64,000 nucleotides of DNA, taken from positions 62,001 to 126,000 of the forward strand of contig JAFXXN010000179.1 in the NCBI GenBank assembly GCA_017542245.1. The letters run 5' to 3'. The position numbers were made by a program, and so were the translations under genes. The notes under the pieces are model-generated. The model was given only the letters and a program-made list of their open reading frames with translations. It had not been told where the DNA came from and searched no databases. Source of the DNA: Lachnospiraceae bacterium (lineage in GTDB: Bacteria; Bacillota; Clostridia; Lachnospirales; Lachnospiraceae). Of the stretch, positions 11,473 through 62,256 are shown in pieces (position 1 is the first letter of the stretch; the number at the start of each line of letters is the position of its first letter).

Positions 11473-11543
11473 GGACGGAGAATCAAAAAATCCCTCTTGG
11501 CAGGCCCCAAAGCCGTGCAGAGGAATTTTTTGATTCTCCGTCC
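11473..11543. repeat. long palindrome 1 with shared 31-nt core (core on + orientation)
   Basis: A 71-nt inverted repeat. The outer arms (GGACGGAGAATC with GATTCTCCGTCC, continued by A/T runs) pair almost perfectly to the edge of a 31-nt centre at 11493-11523. That centre begins CCTCTTGGCAGGC and ends GCCGTGCAGAGG. The same centre recurs, inverted, in the next two palindromes, while the arms differ. Confidence 0.9.
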
Positions 11544-11615
11544 TTGACCCTACCAATTTAAAGCTTTTTTGTTGCTTGGCATTTGTGTTTTTCGAATTCA
11601 AGTAGGAAACTGCCG

Positions 11616-11690
11616 CGGAGATTGAGATACAGAGTTCCCTCTGCACGGCTTTTGGGCCTGCCAAGAGGGAACTCTGTATCTCAATCTCTG
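11616..11690. repeat. long palindrome 2 with shared 31-nt core (core inverted)
   Basis: About 75 nt. The arms run from CGGAGATTGAGATAC to GTATCTCAATCTCTG and are perfectly paired apart from an outer G-T. The centre at 11638-11668 is the reverse complement of the palindrome 1 centre with a single difference. The arm sequence has no similarity to that of palindrome 1. Confidence 0.9.
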
Positions 11691-11745
11691 CATAGAGCAT
11701 AGTTTTCATTACTTTGATGCCTGCTAAATTAATGCAGAAAGAGCA

Positions 11746-11818
11746 GGGAAAGGGGTTCATGAGTCCCCTCTGCATGGCTTTGGTGCCTGCCAAGAGGGGA
11801 CTCATGAACCCCTTCCCC
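11746..11818. repeat. long palindrome 3 with shared 31-nt core (core inverted)
   Basis: About 73 nt. The arms contain GGGGTTCATGAGTCCCC paired with GGGGACTCATGAACCCC. The centre at 11767-11797 is the same 31-nt core in the orientation of palindrome 2, with two differences from palindrome 1. Between palindromes 2 and 3, CTTTGATGCCTGCTAA (11712-11727) looks like a decayed fourth core. The region separates two convergent genes and could terminate both, but no standard terminator T run follows. Confidence 0.9.
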
Positions 11819-11840: not shown

Positions 11841-13016
11841 TTATGCTTTCTTCCGAAGTTTCAGCTGGCGGAGCTTCACCCCGGTATTGTAGAAATCTTT
11901 GGTCGAGCATCCGGCTCTTCCGCCACCTGCACATGCACAAGCGCATGCACATGCGCATGAACCGTGAGCATATGTTCCCGAATGTCTTGTAGGAACATAA
12001 ACATGAGATACATGAACTCTCATAAATGTATTTGGAATGGAAGCAAAAGGATGAAGCCCTTCATTATTTTTCTGAGATTTAAGGCTGCTGTCAAGTTCCT
12101 TAATTTCTTTTTCTTCCAGAACTTCCTCGCTTTGAATCATGCTTCTTCCACAATATTCACAGTTTTCCTTACCTTCAACTCTCGGAGCGCTGCATGAAGG
12201 ACATGAAGGATAATAAACAACCTTTGTTCTTTTGATTTTTTTCTTTGTTGTTCCTGCCATATTTGCGGTACTTTTGTATTTGTTTACGGCAGAACTTATG
12301 GATGCCATTACTAGAGCAAGTGCAGCAATCAGAATAGCTAAAGGTACTGTAAGAGCATCGTCATTACTATTGGTAATAGTCTTTTCTGAGTCAAAATTGA
12401 AAGCACTGTTCGGATAAGTAAGCGAAATATTGAATTTTGCTTTTTTATTCAGCTTTGTTGTCCAGGTAAGATATCCGTCTGCTTCTAAATGACATGCAGG
12501 AGAATAACTGTCAACTTTATCATTGTTCCATTTTAAGGTTAAAAGTTCAACGTTTATATCATCAAACCAGCCGGGAGTAAACTGATATACAGTTTTTCCT
12601 TCTTCATTTTTGTTCATCTCATAAATATAATCCTGAACAATCTCAAATTCAAATTCTACGATTTCACCGGCATTATATTTCTTCTTAAAATCGATTTTGA
12701 TGAAGCTTCCGCCATCAGAATAATATTTTATGCTTTTGATATTTGTGGTCAGACCTCTGATATTTGATACATGTTTGTTAGCGATACCGATTTTTACCCA
12801 TTCCAGCGGACCTTCAGAAGTTGAATCAAGAACTTCCCATACGATATGATATCTCATATTGACGGTACCGTTAGATAAAACATTTGCGGTTATATCGTAT
12901 TCATGGATTTTATCGAGATCTTTAGCTTGTACTTTGTTTGAAAATATTGGACTGATCAGTATTGCGGCAAGTACAATGCAGCAATAAAATGCCATTCTTT
13001 TTGTAATTTTTTTCAT
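11841..13016 (-). CDS. membrane protein with zinc ribbon and alternating Cys-Ala tail, candidate radical SAM substrate
   Basis: A 391-residue protein. Residues 1-31 form a signal peptide, and 32-220 an extracytoplasmic beta-rich domain reminiscent of DUF2207. One membrane helix spans about 223-245, and a short zinc ribbon (C272xxC275, C286xxC289) follows. After a linker comes a tail in which Cys at 354, 356, 358, 360 and 362 alternate with Ala, then GGGRAGC with Cys370, then 21 polar residues. With an exported N-terminus the tail would face the cytoplasm. The gene starts 29 bases after the end of a SPASM radical SAM gene on the same strand, with AAAGGTGAT as ribosome site, so co-transcription is likely. 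I infer that the tail is the modified substrate. An alternative is direct metal or iron-sulfur binding. I recall no named family for it. Confidence 0.75.
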   Translation of the reverse strand: MKKITKRMAFYCCIVLAAILISPIFSNKVQAKDLDKIHEYDITANVLSNGTVNMRYHIVWEVLDSTSEGPLEWVKIGIANKHVSNIRGLTTNIKSIKYYSDGGSFIKIDFKKKYNAGEIVEFEFEIVQDYIYEMNKNEEGKTVYQFTPGWFDDINVELLTLKWNNDKVDSYSPACHLEADGYLTWTTKLNKKAKFNISLTYPNSAFNFDSEKTITNSNDDALTVPLAILIAALALVMASISSAVNKYKSTANMAGTTKKKIKRTKVVYYPSCPSCSAPRVEGKENCEYCGRSMIQSEEVLEEKEIKELDSSLKSQKNNEGLHPFASIPNTFMRVHVSHVYVPTRHSGTYAHGSCACACACACAGGGRAGCSTKDFYNTGVKLRQLKLRKKA

Positions 13017-13045
13017 TTATATCACCTTTTTCTTTATATGTGTTT

Positions 13046-14428
13046 TCAGCAGGATCTGCCGCCTTTTAATATCCTTAACGGACATTCACCGCGCATCTTT
13101 GCTGAAAACTTCCTGCGTTCCTTACAAATTTCATTTTCCCAGATGTCTTCCCATTTATCTTTTAGAATATTGCCGAGAGGTTTATCTGAAAGCCAGCTTT
13201 GGCAGGGAACAACATTACCGCCGGGAGTTATTGCCATATTGCTTAAGCATGCACCGCAGTTCGGAGTACTGATACCGAGCTCCGTACAGAAGCTGCTGTC
13301 CATCCACCCGGGAGATGTAAAACTGATCTCCATATTATTGGAGTAGCAGTAATTGACCGCCTCTTTAACAATTTCCCTTACTTCGGCATTAGTAAGCTGA
13401 AGGTTTTCGGATTCTTTTTTTGTGGCGTTTCCGGTAGTAATAAGTCCGGAGCAGGTAACATATTTAACACCTTTCTCATGAAGAAATTTTAATGTTGAGA
13501 GATAATCTCTGTTAAGTGTACATAAAGGAGTGTTAATGCTTATGTTAAGCCCGGCTTCCAAAGCATTTTCAATACCTGAAACGGTATCTTTGTATCTTTC
13601 TGCACCGACAAGTCTGTTATGTATTTCTTCTTTATCGGAATAAAATGTAATCTGCATGCTGTCAAGTGAAGCAGCTCTTAACTGGTTACAGAAATCTTTT
13701 GTAAGTTTAATACCGTTTGTATTCAGCCTTGTGATGAACCATTTTGCATGATCTATCAGTTCAACAAGATCATCTCTCATGGTAGGTTCGCCGCCGGTGA
13801 AAGTTAACTGAGGAATCTTGGCCTCACGGCATTTATCTATTATAAGTTTCCAGGATTCGGTATCAAATTCATCTTCGGATGAGTTTTCCTGACCGGCTGC
13901 ATAGCAGTGTACACATTTCTGGTTACAGTGCCATTTACCGTCTTTTGTCATTGCACTGACCATAAGATCCATTCTGTGCGGTGCAGTCATCATATCTGCG
14001 TAATCACCTATACTCATATATCCGATAGCTTCATCAACTTCTTCACCATAAGCAATCTGCTTAAAAGATTCCATGATTCTTATGATATCTTTTTTAAATC
14101 TGCTTTTAAATATCAGTGGATATACTTTTTTTACAATCTGACATGTATTATCGATTATGGTCTGTACATCTTCGTCGGAAACATTTTTACCGCTGAATTT
14201 GTTGACTTCTTCTATAAAAGCTGTAAGTAATATGCTCCATGAAACATTTATGGGTACAATATCCTGACCATTGATGATCGCAACGCTTGCTTCAATATTT
14301 TCCCTGCTGTACTTAGGTGGGATAAGATGTATTCTGACAACACCCGGTCCTTCGGGATCGATAGTTGTATGATGTACTTCATTATAATATTTCTCAGCAA
14401 ATAAGTATTCCCTTTTTGATGGATACAT
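13046..14428 (-). CDS. radical SAM/SPASM enzyme, putative maturase
   Basis: A 460-residue enzyme. The N-terminal 150 residues are a helical region of unknown role. The radical SAM cluster motif is C168xxxC172xxC175 (CNQKCVHC), followed by the SAM-binding FTGGEPTMR near 210. A C-terminal SPASM-like domain contains C381, C391, C394, C409, C435, C449 and C460, enough for auxiliary iron-sulfur clusters. Such enzymes install thioether or other crosslinks in peptides (sactipeptide and ranthipeptide maturases) or modify proteins (anSME type). The gene has its own promoter and a strong ribosome site (AAGGAGGAAACG). The downstream gene encodes a Cys-Ala repeat tail, the obvious candidate substrate. 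The specific reaction is unknown. Confidence 0.85.
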   Translation of the reverse strand: MYPSKREYLFAEKYYNEVHHTTIDPEGPGVVRIHLIPPKYSRENIEASVAIINGQDIVPINVSWSILLTAFIEEVNKFSGKNVSDEDVQTIIDNTCQIVKKVYPLIFKSRFKKDIIRIMESFKQIAYGEEVDEAIGYMSIGDYADMMTAPHRMDLMVSAMTKDGKWHCNQKCVHCYAAGQENSSEDEFDTESWKLIIDKCREAKIPQLTFTGGEPTMRDDLVELIDHAKWFITRLNTNGIKLTKDFCNQLRAASLDSMQITFYSDKEEIHNRLVGAERYKDTVSGIENALEAGLNISINTPLCTLNRDYLSTLKFLHEKGVKYVTCSGLITTGNATKKESENLQLTNAEVREIVKEAVNYCYSNNMEISFTSPGWMDSSFCTELGISTPNCGACLSNMAITPGGNVVPCQSWLSDKPLGNILKDKWEDIWENEICKERRKFSAKMRGECPLRILKGGRSC

Positions 14429-14472: not shown

Positions 14473-14501
14473 ATTATATTTATTGGTTTTGATATTTTCA
14501 A
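14473..14501 (-). promoter_or_regulatory. promoter of the radical SAM operon
   Basis: On the minus strand TTGAAA (complement of 14496-14501) and TATAAT (complement of 14473-14478) are 17 bp apart, about 45 bp before the radical SAM start codon. It is back to back with the GH95 promoter. Confidence 0.65.
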
Positions 14502-14601: not shown

Positions 14602-14630
14602 TTGTATTGTAAGAGAAGAAATTGTATAAT
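14602..14630 (+). promoter_or_regulatory. promoter of the GH95 gene
   Basis: TTGTAT (14602-14607) and TATAAT (14625-14630) are separated by 17 bp. The predicted start near 14637 lies downstream of the longest possible start codon of the GH95 frame (14622), which argues for the internal ATG at 14802. Confidence 0.6.
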
Positions 14631-14638
14631 GATGCAAA

Positions 14639-14737
14639 GGACAAAAGTCTAAAAGCCGTTCAAGCTTGCTTGAAAAGGCTTTTAAGACTTTTGTCCGCCC
14701 AAACACCGAGAAGAAACGATTTTCGAAAGAAAATCGT
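14639..14737 (+). promoter_or_regulatory. two stem-loops in the GH95 leader
   Basis: The first stem-loop spans 14639-14696. GGACAAAAGTCT pairs with AGACTTTTGTCC, then AAAAGCC with GGCTTTT, then TTCAAG with CTTGAA around a small loop. It begins at or within a couple of bases of the predicted transcription start. The second (14716-14737) is ACGATTTTC-GAAA-GAAAATCGT, a GAAA-capped hairpin. Together they fill much of a 165-nt untranslated leader. They may protect the mRNA 5' end or bind a regulator. Confidence 0.55.
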
Positions 14738-14801
14738 GAGATTCGAGGAGTTTGAAGTATTGCGAGAGTTACTTGAAAAGGCGTTGAGAAAGGAAAAAAA
14801 T

Positions 14802-17186
14802 ATGCACGACAGATTATTTTATACTAAACCAGCAGGAAGATGGGAGGAAGCTCTGCCTTTAGGTAATGGCAAAATCGGTGCCATGGCTCATGGACAGGTC
14901 GGATTTGAGTATTTTCAACTTAACGAGGACAGTTGCTGGTTCGGAGGATTCAGGGACAGAAACAACCCCGATGCAAAAAAAGCTTTGCCTGTTATTAGAG
15001 AATATTTAAAGAATGGACAGATAGCTAAAGCCGAAGAACTGATGTTGGCATCACTTTCCGGAGTACCTAAGAGTGAACATCCTTATCAGACTCTCGGTGA
15101 TTTAAGAATATATATGAAACATTCCTGGGAGGCATCGGAATACAGAAGAGAACTTAATATAGCTAATGCCGTATATAGCTGTTCGTACAGGATAAATGAT
15201 ACGGTTTATAAAAGAGAAGCCTTTATAAGTGCTGTTGATGACTGTCTTGTGATTAAGATTTCTTCATGTTCTGCTGAAGATAATACTGAAAATAAAAATA
15301 ACGAAATTTCGGAAGAAAAGAATAAAAGGTCGCATGCAAAAATAAGCTTTGACTGTGATATTTCAAGGGAGCCCTATGAGACAATTATAAAGAAAACCGG
15401 GAATGATTCTCTTTCGGAACAAAAAAATGGCGATATATCAGCGCCTTCCGGATGGACATTTACAGATGAAAAGGAACAGAAAAGCCGCGGACTTATATGT
15501 CTTGGCAATACCGGTGGAGACGGAGTTGATTACGGATTTGAACTAAGAGCTTATGCAAAAAACGGTGAAGTTAAGATTATTGGTGCATCCCTTGGCGTAA
15601 GAGATGCTGATGAAGTTGTACTGCTTCTTACGGCAGGGACATCTTTCCGTATGAAGGATATTGAAAAGGAATGCGGACAGATATTAGATAATGCATTTAA
15701 GTTTTCTTATGATGAGCTTAAGGAGAGACATATTGCTGATTACAGAAAATATTACGATAGAGTATCACTTGAGATTGAAGGCTCTGACAGGTATGAGGAT
15801 ATTCCGACAGATGAAAGGCTTATATCATTAAAAAATAGAATAGAAAATAAGGAAAATTGTGAAGATGCATATGATAAAGGACTTGATATTTTATATTATA
15901 ATTTCGGAAGATATCTTATGATATCCGGCAGCCGTCCGGGTACATTGCCCTTAAATCTTCAGGGAATCTGGTGCAAAGACTATCAGTCGGCTTGGGGAAG
16001 CAAATTCACTATCAACATAAATACTGAGATGAACTATTGGCCTGCTGAAAGCTGCAACCTGTCCGAACTGCATATGCCGTTGTTTGATCATATTGAGAGA
16101 ATGTTTCCAAACGGAAAAATCACAGCAGAAAAAATGTACGGATGCAGGGGATTCGTAGCACATCATAATACCGATATCTGGGGAGACTGTGCAGTGCAGG
16201 ATCAATGGATACCTGGATCATACTGGGTAATGGGTGCAGCATGGTTATGTACTCATCAGTGGAAACATTTTCTTTATACAAAAGACATGGAATTCCTGAA
16301 AAAATGTTTCCCGATTATGAGGGAGTCGGCTTTATTTTTCCTTGACTTTTTGATTGAACATGACGGATATCTGGTAACCTGTCCTTCAGTTTCACCGGAA
16401 AATACTTATATTTTGCCAAACGGTGAAAGAGGAGCAAACGGTATAGGCGTAACCATGGATAACCAGATACTGAGGGATCTGTTTTCACAGTGCATAAAGG
16501 CAGCGGAAATCTTAGGTGTGGATGATGAACTGAACGCCAGGATTAAAACCGCTCTGTCAAAAATAAAGCCGGACCGTATCGGAAAATACGGTCAGATTAT
16601 GGAATGGATAGAGGATTATGATGAAGCGGAGCCGGGACACAGACATATATCCCATCTGTATGGTTTACATCCATCAGATCAGATAACGCCTGACGGAACA
16701 CCAGAATTGGCAGAGGCTGCTTCGAAAACACTTGAAAGACGTCTTTCCAACGGAGGAGGACATACAGGCTGGAGCAGGGCTTGGATCATAAACAACTATG
16801 CAAAACTTTGGAATGCAGAGAAAGCTTATGAAAATCTTGAACAGCTTCTGGTGAAGTCTACATTACCCAATCTCTTTGATAATCACCCGCCTTTCCAGAT
16901 AGACGGAAATTTTGGCGGATGCGCAGGAATAGCAGAGATGTTGGTACAGAGTAATGAAAAAAGGACTGTTCTTTTGCCGGCATTACCCAGGGAGTGGAGA
17001 TCGGGCAGGGTAAACGGCCTTTGCATAATAGGCGGGGCCGAACTTAGTATGGAATGGGAAGATGGAAAGTTGGCAAAATTTAATGTTTTAGCCGTGAAAG
17101 CAGATATTAAAACAATATTTGTATATGATGGAAAATCCTATGATTTATGTATTTCAAAGGGGAAATGCGAGGAAATATTACTTTGA
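14802..17186 (+). CDS. GH95-family alpha-L-fucosidase-like enzyme
   Basis: A 794-residue inverting glycosidase of family GH95, whose members remove alpha-1,2-L-fucose or alpha-L-galactose from plant and host glycans. The N-terminal domain begins FYTKPAGRWEEALPLGNGK, as expected. In the (alpha/alpha)6 barrel, N405 and N407 (ININTEMNYW), E533 (SPEN) and D701 (QIDGNFG) match the catalytic Asn, Glu and Asp residues known from bifidobacterial AfcA. No signal peptide is seen, so it is cytoplasmic. The frame is open to 14622, but 14802 is preferred: AAAGGA lies just upstream, family similarity starts there, and the upstream part encodes hairpins. A charged insertion of about 40 residues (about 155-210) is low complexity. 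Confidence 0.87.
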   Translation: MHDRLFYTKPAGRWEEALPLGNGKIGAMAHGQVGFEYFQLNEDSCWFGGFRDRNNPDAKKALPVIREYLKNGQIAKAEELMLASLSGVPKSEHPYQTLGDLRIYMKHSWEASEYRRELNIANAVYSCSYRINDTVYKREAFISAVDDCLVIKISSCSAEDNTENKNNEISEEKNKRSHAKISFDCDISREPYETIIKKTGNDSLSEQKNGDISAPSGWTFTDEKEQKSRGLICLGNTGGDGVDYGFELRAYAKNGEVKIIGASLGVRDADEVVLLLTAGTSFRMKDIEKECGQILDNAFKFSYDELKERHIADYRKYYDRVSLEIEGSDRYEDIPTDERLISLKNRIENKENCEDAYDKGLDILYYNFGRYLMISGSRPGTLPLNLQGIWCKDYQSAWGSKFTININTEMNYWPAESCNLSELHMPLFDHIERMFPNGKITAEKMYGCRGFVAHHNTDIWGDCAVQDQWIPGSYWVMGAAWLCTHQWKHFLYTKDMEFLKKCFPIMRESALFFLDFLIEHDGYLVTCPSVSPENTYILPNGERGANGIGVTMDNQILRDLFSQCIKAAEILGVDDELNARIKTALSKIKPDRIGKYGQIMEWIEDYDEAEPGHRHISHLYGLHPSDQITPDGTPELAEAASKTLERRLSNGGGHTGWSRAWIINNYAKLWNAEKAYENLEQLLVKSTLPNLFDNHPPFQIDGNFGGCAGIAEMLVQSNEKRTVLLPALPREWRSGRVNGLCIIGGAELSMEWEDGKLAKFNVLAVKADIKTIFVYDGKSYDLCISKGKCEEILL

Positions 17187-62101: not shown

Positions 62102-62256
62102 AACAATAAAAAAAGAAGAACGCGTATCTTACGCACCTGTATAGGGTGCAGCATGCTCCAACATTCCTTATAGGGGTTGTGCAGGTAGCCGGAGCATGTA
62201 TCACCCGGTAATCAGAGCATTTGCTCTGATTTTAAGTATTTCTTCTTTTTATATGG
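62102..62256 (+). ncRNA. structured non-coding RNA, 6S-like architecture
   Basis: About 150 nt without a reading frame. The A-rich 5' end (62108-62120) pairs with TTCTTCTTTTT (62240-62250) as a closing stem. Inside are a small hairpin GCGT-ATCTT-ACGC (62122-62134) and a long arm in which GGGTG and CATGCTCC pair with GGAGCATG and CACCC. A third hairpin follows, ATCAGAGC with GCTCTGAT (62211-62230). A closing stem, a central open region with a 3' hairpin and one long arm recall Firmicutes 6S RNA, which binds sigma-A RNA polymerase. The length is short for 6S and I cannot confirm the consensus. A riboswitch-like leader or an RNA partner of the nearby reverse transcriptase are alternatives. Confidence 0.45.

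Follow-up and report, generated by a model that had tools for sequence, protein, structure and literature searches.

The two-gene unit and its tail

A stretch of 64,000 nucleotides from a Lachnospiraceae bacterium (GenBank assembly GCA_017542245.1, contig JAFXXN010000179.1, positions 62,001 to 126,000), here referred to as the window, carries a two-gene unit that encodes a radical S-adenosylmethionine (SAM) enzyme with a SPASM domain and a membrane protein that ends in a run of alternating cysteine and alanine residues. A preliminary description of this DNA had proposed that the enzyme targets the tail, and its account of the layout is upheld by the open reading frames (ORFs) and by Pfam: the two genes lie on the minus strand, and 29 bases separate the end of the enzyme gene from the start of the tail-protein gene. 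The five Cys-Ala pairs followed by GGGRAGC that it had read at the tail are likewise found in the translated ORF, of which the C-terminal end is CACACACACAGGGRAGCSTKDFY and in which the tail appears in the context GSCACACACACAGGGRAGCSTKDFYNTG.

13046..14428, minus strand: first gene of the unit, radical SAM/SPASM enzyme, ORF of 460 amino acids
11841..13016, minus strand: second gene of the unit, membrane protein with Cys-Ala tail, ORF of 391 amino acids
11889..11957, minus strand: the tail, C354 to Y376 (five Cys-Ala pairs, then GGGRAGC, then STKDFY), proposed modification site, marked by invariant columns

Association of enzyme and tail across genomes

The unit is carried by a group of gut and rumen bacteria. 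A scan of an 84,980-species genome collection with peptide patterns yielded 56 loci, 35 of them titled Lachnospiraceae and most others Clostridia or Bacillota; they include Lachnospiraceae bacterium YSD2013 (L085), apparently a cultured isolate, and three records titled Eggerthellaceae, Atopobiaceae and Coriobacteriaceae, which may represent transfer or mis-binning. The tail is present in all 56. In all 54 whose contig extends far enough, the enzyme gene immediately precedes the tail gene on the same strand; L107 and L113 start at a contig end, so that this position falls outside them. Because tail-derived peptide patterns partly served to find these loci, the tail counts are to some extent ascertained, which does not apply to the adjacency of the enzyme. 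Together with loci from a set of related genomes, some of which represent the same genome as loci of the collection, 60 distinct enzyme/tail pairs are available, all on one strand, with 24 overlapping by four bases and 51 having a spacing between -29 and +15 bases; for L073 and L080, where stop-to-stop frames overlap, the gaps are -4 and 14.

The same picture emerges from genome draws. The tail protein, full or cut by a contig end, was found in 19 of 99 related genomes, the window's own included, and an enzyme match above 590 bits in the same 19, the next-best enzyme match among those listed reaching 87 bits; G003, G006 and G019 match the tail protein only over its zinc ribbon and have no tail. 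In a class draw of 391 genomes the profile of the tail protein, applied at E <= 1e-10, and that of the enzyme, at E <= 1e-40, match the same 11 genomes, and in a phylum draw of 398 genomes the former matches 11 and the latter the same 11 plus four (L168-L171). A few tails are truncated or obscured, by contig ends within the glycine-rich run (G330 in the class draw; L125/L146), by a contig end (L129), by masked Ns (L139, phylum draw) or by a cut inside the tail itself (L138, phylum draw), and in G412, also of the class draw, transposase-like ORFs separate the start of the gene from the rest (L145:6663-9598); one of them matches DDE_Tnp_1. None of 11 weaker or more distant radical SAM loci (L050-L060) has a (CA)3 frame of at least 40 amino acids, and (CA)4 occurs outside this tail context in 0 of 7168 frames of at least 60 amino acids in the loci fetched. 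The distances of enzymes and tail proteins are correlated (r = 0.85, 52 pairs, Mantel p = 0.001), although this counts for little by itself because it is expected of linked genes. The preliminary description had named tails mostly lacking an adjacent radical SAM gene as the observation that would speak against it; the opposite was found, with the enzyme beside the tail wherever the sequence reached. Spread by plasmids was considered and rejected: one Paenibacillus record matches 61% of the enzyme at 31.8%. Viral contigs gave no match to the back-translated tail pattern.

Conservation of the tail

The tail protein measures from 319 to 460 amino acids in 59 distinct aligned sequences with a mean column identity of 40% (alignment A1, from which identical proteins, L018, L019, L107 and L113 with contig ends, and L080, whose frame runs well past the tail, were left out). 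Of the 31 columns that are invariant in 59/59 proteins, 19 belong to the tail (C356-C370 and K373-Y376). The corresponding 19 codons, for CACACAGGGRAGCxxKDFY, can be found in 72 loci, among which some genomes are represented twice, and take the form of 59 distinct DNA sequences in which third positions vary in 19/19 codons, first positions in three and second positions in two. Chance or a DNA repeat as the origin of the tail was ruled out, since third codon positions are free and the residues fixed.

The middle residue of C-x-C is Ala in 372/375 cases (the others being one Gly, one Tyr and one His), that is, in 284/285 in the 59 aligned tails and 88/90 in 18 remote tails, and the residue that follows 565 non-last Cys is Ala in 531, Val in 31 and Gly, Tyr or His in one each; these tallies count sequences, many of them related, rather than independent events. 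Between four and six Cys-Ala units directly precede the turn in the 59 aligned tails, and in many tails the two-residue period is interrupted by CVSC, CAHSSC or CVHSSC. The KDFY that follows, although conserved in the 59 aligned proteins, was tried as an essential acceptor and rejected, as it is replaced in L126, L127, L135-L137 and L140-L144 and absent in L168-L171; what all clades seen have in common is therefore (CA)n, then 4-6 residues rich in Gly, then a single Cys. The strictness at the middle residue of C-x-C is the main argument for supposing that the Ala of C-x-C takes part in the chemistry, because a plain metal-binding tail would hardly fix its middle residue.

The radical SAM enzyme

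13904..13927, minus strand: CxxxCxxC motif (C168, C172, C175), [4Fe-4S]/SAM binding, invariant in 58/58 enzymes
13082..13258, minus strand: SPASM region, residues 391-449, from the Pfam range and Cys conservation

The CxxxCxxC core and a SPASM domain, both above curated cut-offs (Radical_SAM PF04055, 71.8 bits against 29.5; SPASM PF13186, 34.6 against 21.5), place the window enzyme in the superfamily. The CxxxCxxC motif, noted in the preliminary description, is confirmed in all 58 aligned relatives (mean column identity 64%; alignment A2, which left out loci without a pickable start, proteins of fewer than 431 residues and identical proteins) and is also invariant in a 17-row alignment that includes remote enzymes. 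Two further cysteines outside both this motif and the SPASM region, Cys303 and Cys326, are invariant in 58/58.

The C-terminal part requires a more qualified view. Seven cysteines can indeed be counted there (381, 391, 394, 409, 435, 449 and 460), as had been stated, but they form an incomplete SPASM set. A full set consists of CX9-15GX4C, CX2CX5CX3C and a further C, which serve two auxiliary clusters, and it is not present in the window's clade according to the alignment. CX2CX5CX3C lies close to the C-terminus in the remote enzymes L136, L141, L144 and L168-L171, whereas the window's clade lacks this motif and retains only its last Cys, together with C391, C394, C409 and C435, and C391, C394, C409, C435 and C449 are kept in 56-58 of the 58 relatives. 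The missing CX2CX5CX3C suggests that this clade has lost one auxiliary cluster and keeps ligands for one, a twitch-like state in terms of the distinction between SPASM and twitch domains drawn in PMC9012708.

By profile comparison the closest solved structure is SkfB (6efn), which ranks first in both searches (E 3.4e-17 with alignment A2 and 5.7e-26 with A3), and other near structures include cytosylglucuronate decarboxylase, PqqE, tetraether lipid synthase, MoaA, CteB and SuiB, the last two of which we take to be entries 5wgg and 5v1q. The enzyme reaches no NCBIfam cut-off among the matches listed (25 of 56), its scores being 112.5 bits for NirJ2 (cut-off 500), 61.4 for StsB (625) and 59.2 for SkfB (300).

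Architecture and topology of the membrane protein

12924..13016, minus strand: signal peptide, about residues 1-31 (hydrophobic windows starting at 3-13 after a K/R-rich start; cleavage site by eye)
12354..12923, minus strand: predicted extracellular domain, DUF2207-like (PF09972, 18.7 bits, under the cut-off of 24.4)
12282..12353, minus strand: transmembrane helix, about residues 222-245 (hydropathy, 19-residue windows starting at 218-228)
12150..12203, minus strand: C4 zinc-ribbon-like motif CPSC...CEYC (C272, C275, C286, C289), each Cys in 58/59 proteins

The signal peptide, outer domain and single membrane helix of the preliminary description are supported by hydropathy and by a K/R-rich stretch after the helix, with eight K/R and no D/E among residues 246-275. 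The net charge is higher after the helix than before it in 58/59 tail proteins, so the tail should lie in the cytoplasm, on the side of the enzyme. A TPM domain (30.6-35.8 bits, cut-off 22.1) follows the tail within one frame in L140, L142 and L143, beyond another hydrophobic segment (peak 1.91-2.47), and this C-terminal domain together with the charge bias supports the orientation proposed earlier, as a prediction. The zinc ribbon is present in the window protein, as had been described, but appears dispensable: it was ruled out as an essential part because it is absent in 11/11 remote tail proteins tested. DUF2207 also appears below cut-off in the remote proteins L122-L124 (14.3-15.0 bits), and no PF09972 match at E <= 0.001 was obtained in the window's whole genome. 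The tail protein was used without its first residue in the Pfam, NCBIfam and genome-collection searches.

Remote members and a second scaffold

In L168-L171 the enzyme adjoins a different and longer membrane protein (frames of 491-506 residues), which is missed by the tail-protein profile and has a signal-like segment and one strong helix, with a weak further segment in one. The gene order is reversed, the tail gene preceding the enzyme, and the partners nevertheless end in (CA)5SSGGCT in three (SSCACACACACASSGGCT) and (CA)5GGGGCT in one (GSCACACACACAGGGGCT). The enzyme family therefore predicts the tail even where the scaffold is unrecognized. Other remote arrangements include two tandem tail proteins that precede one enzyme (G336; L148:6767-10075), and rows of enzyme, tail protein, TPM-type protein and LemA protein (L152:5436-9616 and L155:4811-8862), with Pfam support for TPM in L152 and for LemA in both. 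These rows link the unit, at the level of gene order, to a TPM/LemA envelope neighborhood. Work cited in PMC12631010 connects a DUF2207 protein of Streptococcus mutans with stress tolerance, and LemA proteins with the restructuring of membranes; these reports are the only functional hint found.

Comparison with known systems

In the literature searched, among the titles and abstract openings listed and with subscription papers mostly outside, no description of a SPASM enzyme paired with a Cys-Ala membrane tail was found, which agrees, within that range, with the preliminary description, to whose author no such design was known. The nearest published design seen is that of TIGR04222 membrane proteins with MNIO enzymes. 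According to PMC12452194, these likewise combine a large outer domain with a C-terminal tail that is of low complexity and contains Cys, and a candidate enzyme is encoded beside them, but this enzyme is an MNIO and the tail is Ser/Gly-rich and predicted to be periplasmic, whereas here a radical SAM enzyme accompanies a Cys-Ala tail predicted to be cytoplasmic. That linkage is also loose, 490/1372 genomes with TIGR04222 having no MNIO genes in the same source, and the linkage seen here is near absolute. No TIGR04222 match was found in the window protein or in 8 remote tail proteins with NCBIfam.

The maturases SkfB, CteB, AlbA, StsB and PapB resemble the window enzyme in having radical SAM and SPASM domains and a Cys-rich partner in the same unit. 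Sactipeptide and ranthipeptide maturases act on short free precursor peptides (for PapB, PMC9413430), which differ from the membrane protein of 391 amino acids encoded here. A short free precursor with leader and core is not seen, the partner being a membrane protein of 319-460 amino acids, and no generally conserved family that could supply a leader protease or exporter was found in the flanks of the 56 loci; for these reasons the defining features tested do not class the unit with sactipeptide or ranthipeptide clusters, although it may well use the same chemistry. The ACGX system (TIGR04340, rSAM_ACGX) also couples a SPASM enzyme to a partner named for its Cys-containing repeat, but the repeat differs by its name and the window enzyme scores 51.4 bits against a cut-off of 400. 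The DUF2207, TPM and LemA envelope proteins offer a likeness on the side of the scaffold, with an outer domain and one helix, and with TPM or LemA after the tail in remote members, but the window protein lies below the PF09972 cut-off.

Proposed mechanism and alternative explanations

The interpretation that we favor, with a probability of about 0.72, is that the Cys-Ala tail of the membrane protein is modified by a radical SAM enzyme dedicated to it and is not released as a free peptide. The preliminary description is thus supported in part: its core proposal of a dedicated, tail-targeting enzyme stands, owing to the tight association and the predicted cytoplasmic tail, with the designation SPASM qualified by the probably single auxiliary cluster, and the crosslinking, metal binding, redox sensing or electron transfer that it suggested are possible features of the tail. 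As judged from the gene pairs, the tail is probably the substrate of the enzyme. Enzyme and partner would be made together, as the gene layout indicates, and the partner is predicted to insert into the membrane with its outer domain outside and its tail in the cytoplasm, where the enzyme would recognize the tail and act, through the SAM-derived 5'-deoxyadenosyl radical, on the Cys-Ala dipeptides and on the Gly-rich turn with its lone last Cys. If the tail is indeed the substrate, thioether formation is the first choice because of the kinship with SkfB-type enzymes, at roughly even odds against all other products; the Cys sulphurs would be joined to backbone or side-chain carbons, and the near absence of exchanges at the Ala of C-x-C makes this residue the likely acceptor. 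In PMC8326336 the acceptor residue in the SkfB substrate is described as replaceable by Ala. Remaining on its protein, the tail may then serve as a stiff arm with redox or metal activity, on an envelope protein with ties to the DUF2207/TPM/LemA neighborhood, probably to report or buffer envelope or redox stress.

Several observations weigh against this interpretation. Association cannot tell a substrate from a partner. An RRE (PqqD-like) domain, the recognition domain usual in peptide-modifying radical SAM enzymes, is undetectable in the window's clade (hhalign probability 0.1-0.2%) and reaches 2-11% when window and remote enzymes are aligned together; for the remote L168-L171, three template sets, of which the second and third were refinements made once the first had been used, gave 18.5%, 48% and 75.5%, and a PqqD-like domain is possible there. 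In Pfam and NCBIfam the window tail protein stays below every cut-off, as do eight remote tail proteins apart from the TPM domain of L142. The Cys-Ala run is moderately hydrophobic (peak 2.11 in L140, L142 and L143), so that the tail could make its own contact with the membrane, and Tyr replaces one repeat Cys in the second tail copy of L123 (L148:6767-10075).

Among the alternatives, the enzyme could alter every second residue without crosslinks, for example to D-Ala or D-Cys, and produce a rigid thiol-lined helix. Should the tail be the substrate, such alternate-residue epimerization is a second and rather doubtful choice for the chemistry, made because the two-residue period, which is seen in all clades, resembles the 1,3-pattern of PoyD, reported in PMC8326336 to epimerize at every 1,3-position; the invariant Cys303 and Cys326 would also fit, as the same source describes critical Cys in epimerases. 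The interruptions of the period in many tails argue against it, as does, more weakly, the statement there that proteusin epimerases carry the radical SAM cluster only, given that EpeE has two clusters, and as a separate explanation it appears unlikely. The tail could instead be an unmodified, metallothionein-like thiolate ligand for metal or Fe-S, with the enzyme acting elsewhere or using the tail to reduce its own clusters. CxC and CxxC spacings are typical of metal-thiolate proteins and SPASM enzymes need delivered electrons, but metal-binding CxC tolerates many middle residues, so the near-fixed Ala argues against a plain thiol ligand, and a tail on at least two scaffolds beside the same enzyme family suits a substrate better than a ligand; this explanation is improbable.

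The Cys-rich C-terminal core that adjoins a SPASM enzyme, and the Gly-rich stretch that precedes the tail in some members, could also be taken to mark a disguised ribosomally synthesized and post-translationally modified peptide, in which the membrane protein acts as an extended leader and cleavage frees the tail to act as a signal or bacteriocin. This is quite improbable: the tail is predicted to be cytoplasmic, a released peptide is hard to reconcile with a tail internal to a longer protein in L140, L142 and L143, and no third gene family, hence no protease or transporter, occurs in more than 16/56 loci (469 ORFs of at least 90 amino acids, flanks up to 5 kb), where families were compared with each other rather than named one by one, so that a minority transporter is possible. 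The largest third-gene cluster is at scattered positions in its 16 loci, and a generally shared third gene was rejected on this account. Finally, an accidental neighborhood of a low-complexity tail and an unrelated enzyme has a negligible chance; no supporting point was found for it, and it is refuted by the association counts, the two gene orders, the two detected scaffold types and the absence of a generally shared third gene.

Setting of the unit in the window

14473..14501, minus strand: promoter-like site TTGAAA-17-TATAAT, 5' of the enzyme gene, 11/12 matches

A promoter of its own had been ascribed to the unit; the site is present, but the number of such sites upstream is not above that in shuffled sequence (one found against a mean of 2.0). 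The unit is flanked by GH2-type and GH95-type glycosidase genes on the opposite strand, and nothing seen suggests that they belong to it; in 11/56 loci a gene that is glycosidase-like by eye lies just downstream of the unit (L065:6197-7477 and 10 others). A Clostridiales-1 RNA of Rfam (69.3 bits) is located at 14630-14786, just 5' of the GH95 domains and inside a called TTG-start ORF (14622-17186), and the true start of the GH95 gene probably lies downstream of it. Downstream of the tail gene, three hairpins at 11473-11818 have stems of 25-28 bp, each different, with loop and stem top nearly identical (CTGCACGGCTTTTGGGCCTGCCAAGAGG; 3 matches at up to 3 mismatches, 0 in 100 shuffles), and look like a small family of extragenic repeats. 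An RT-5 RNA of Rfam is found at 62131-62242 (77.5 bits).

Conclusions

To our knowledge, SPASM peptide maturases mostly yield short peptides that are released, or cofactors. A more tentative proposal, which we hold as a possibility rather than an expectation, is that (Cys-Ala)n-Gly-rich-Cys tails, on the cytoplasmic side of envelope proteins of at least two Bacillota scaffolds, are made periodic by a dedicated radical SAM enzyme, as a thioether ladder or an alternating D/L strand, and never released, which would constitute an undescribed class of modification and a rigid redox or metal-relay arm from the envelope to the cytoplasm. If the favored interpretation is true, post-translational modification by radical SAM enzymes would extend to the architecture of membrane proteins, in a minimal two-gene unit. 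Being compact and clonable, with a target that hardly varies, this unit would serve as a test system and might also help to reveal the roles of the DUF2207, TPM and LemA envelope proteins.

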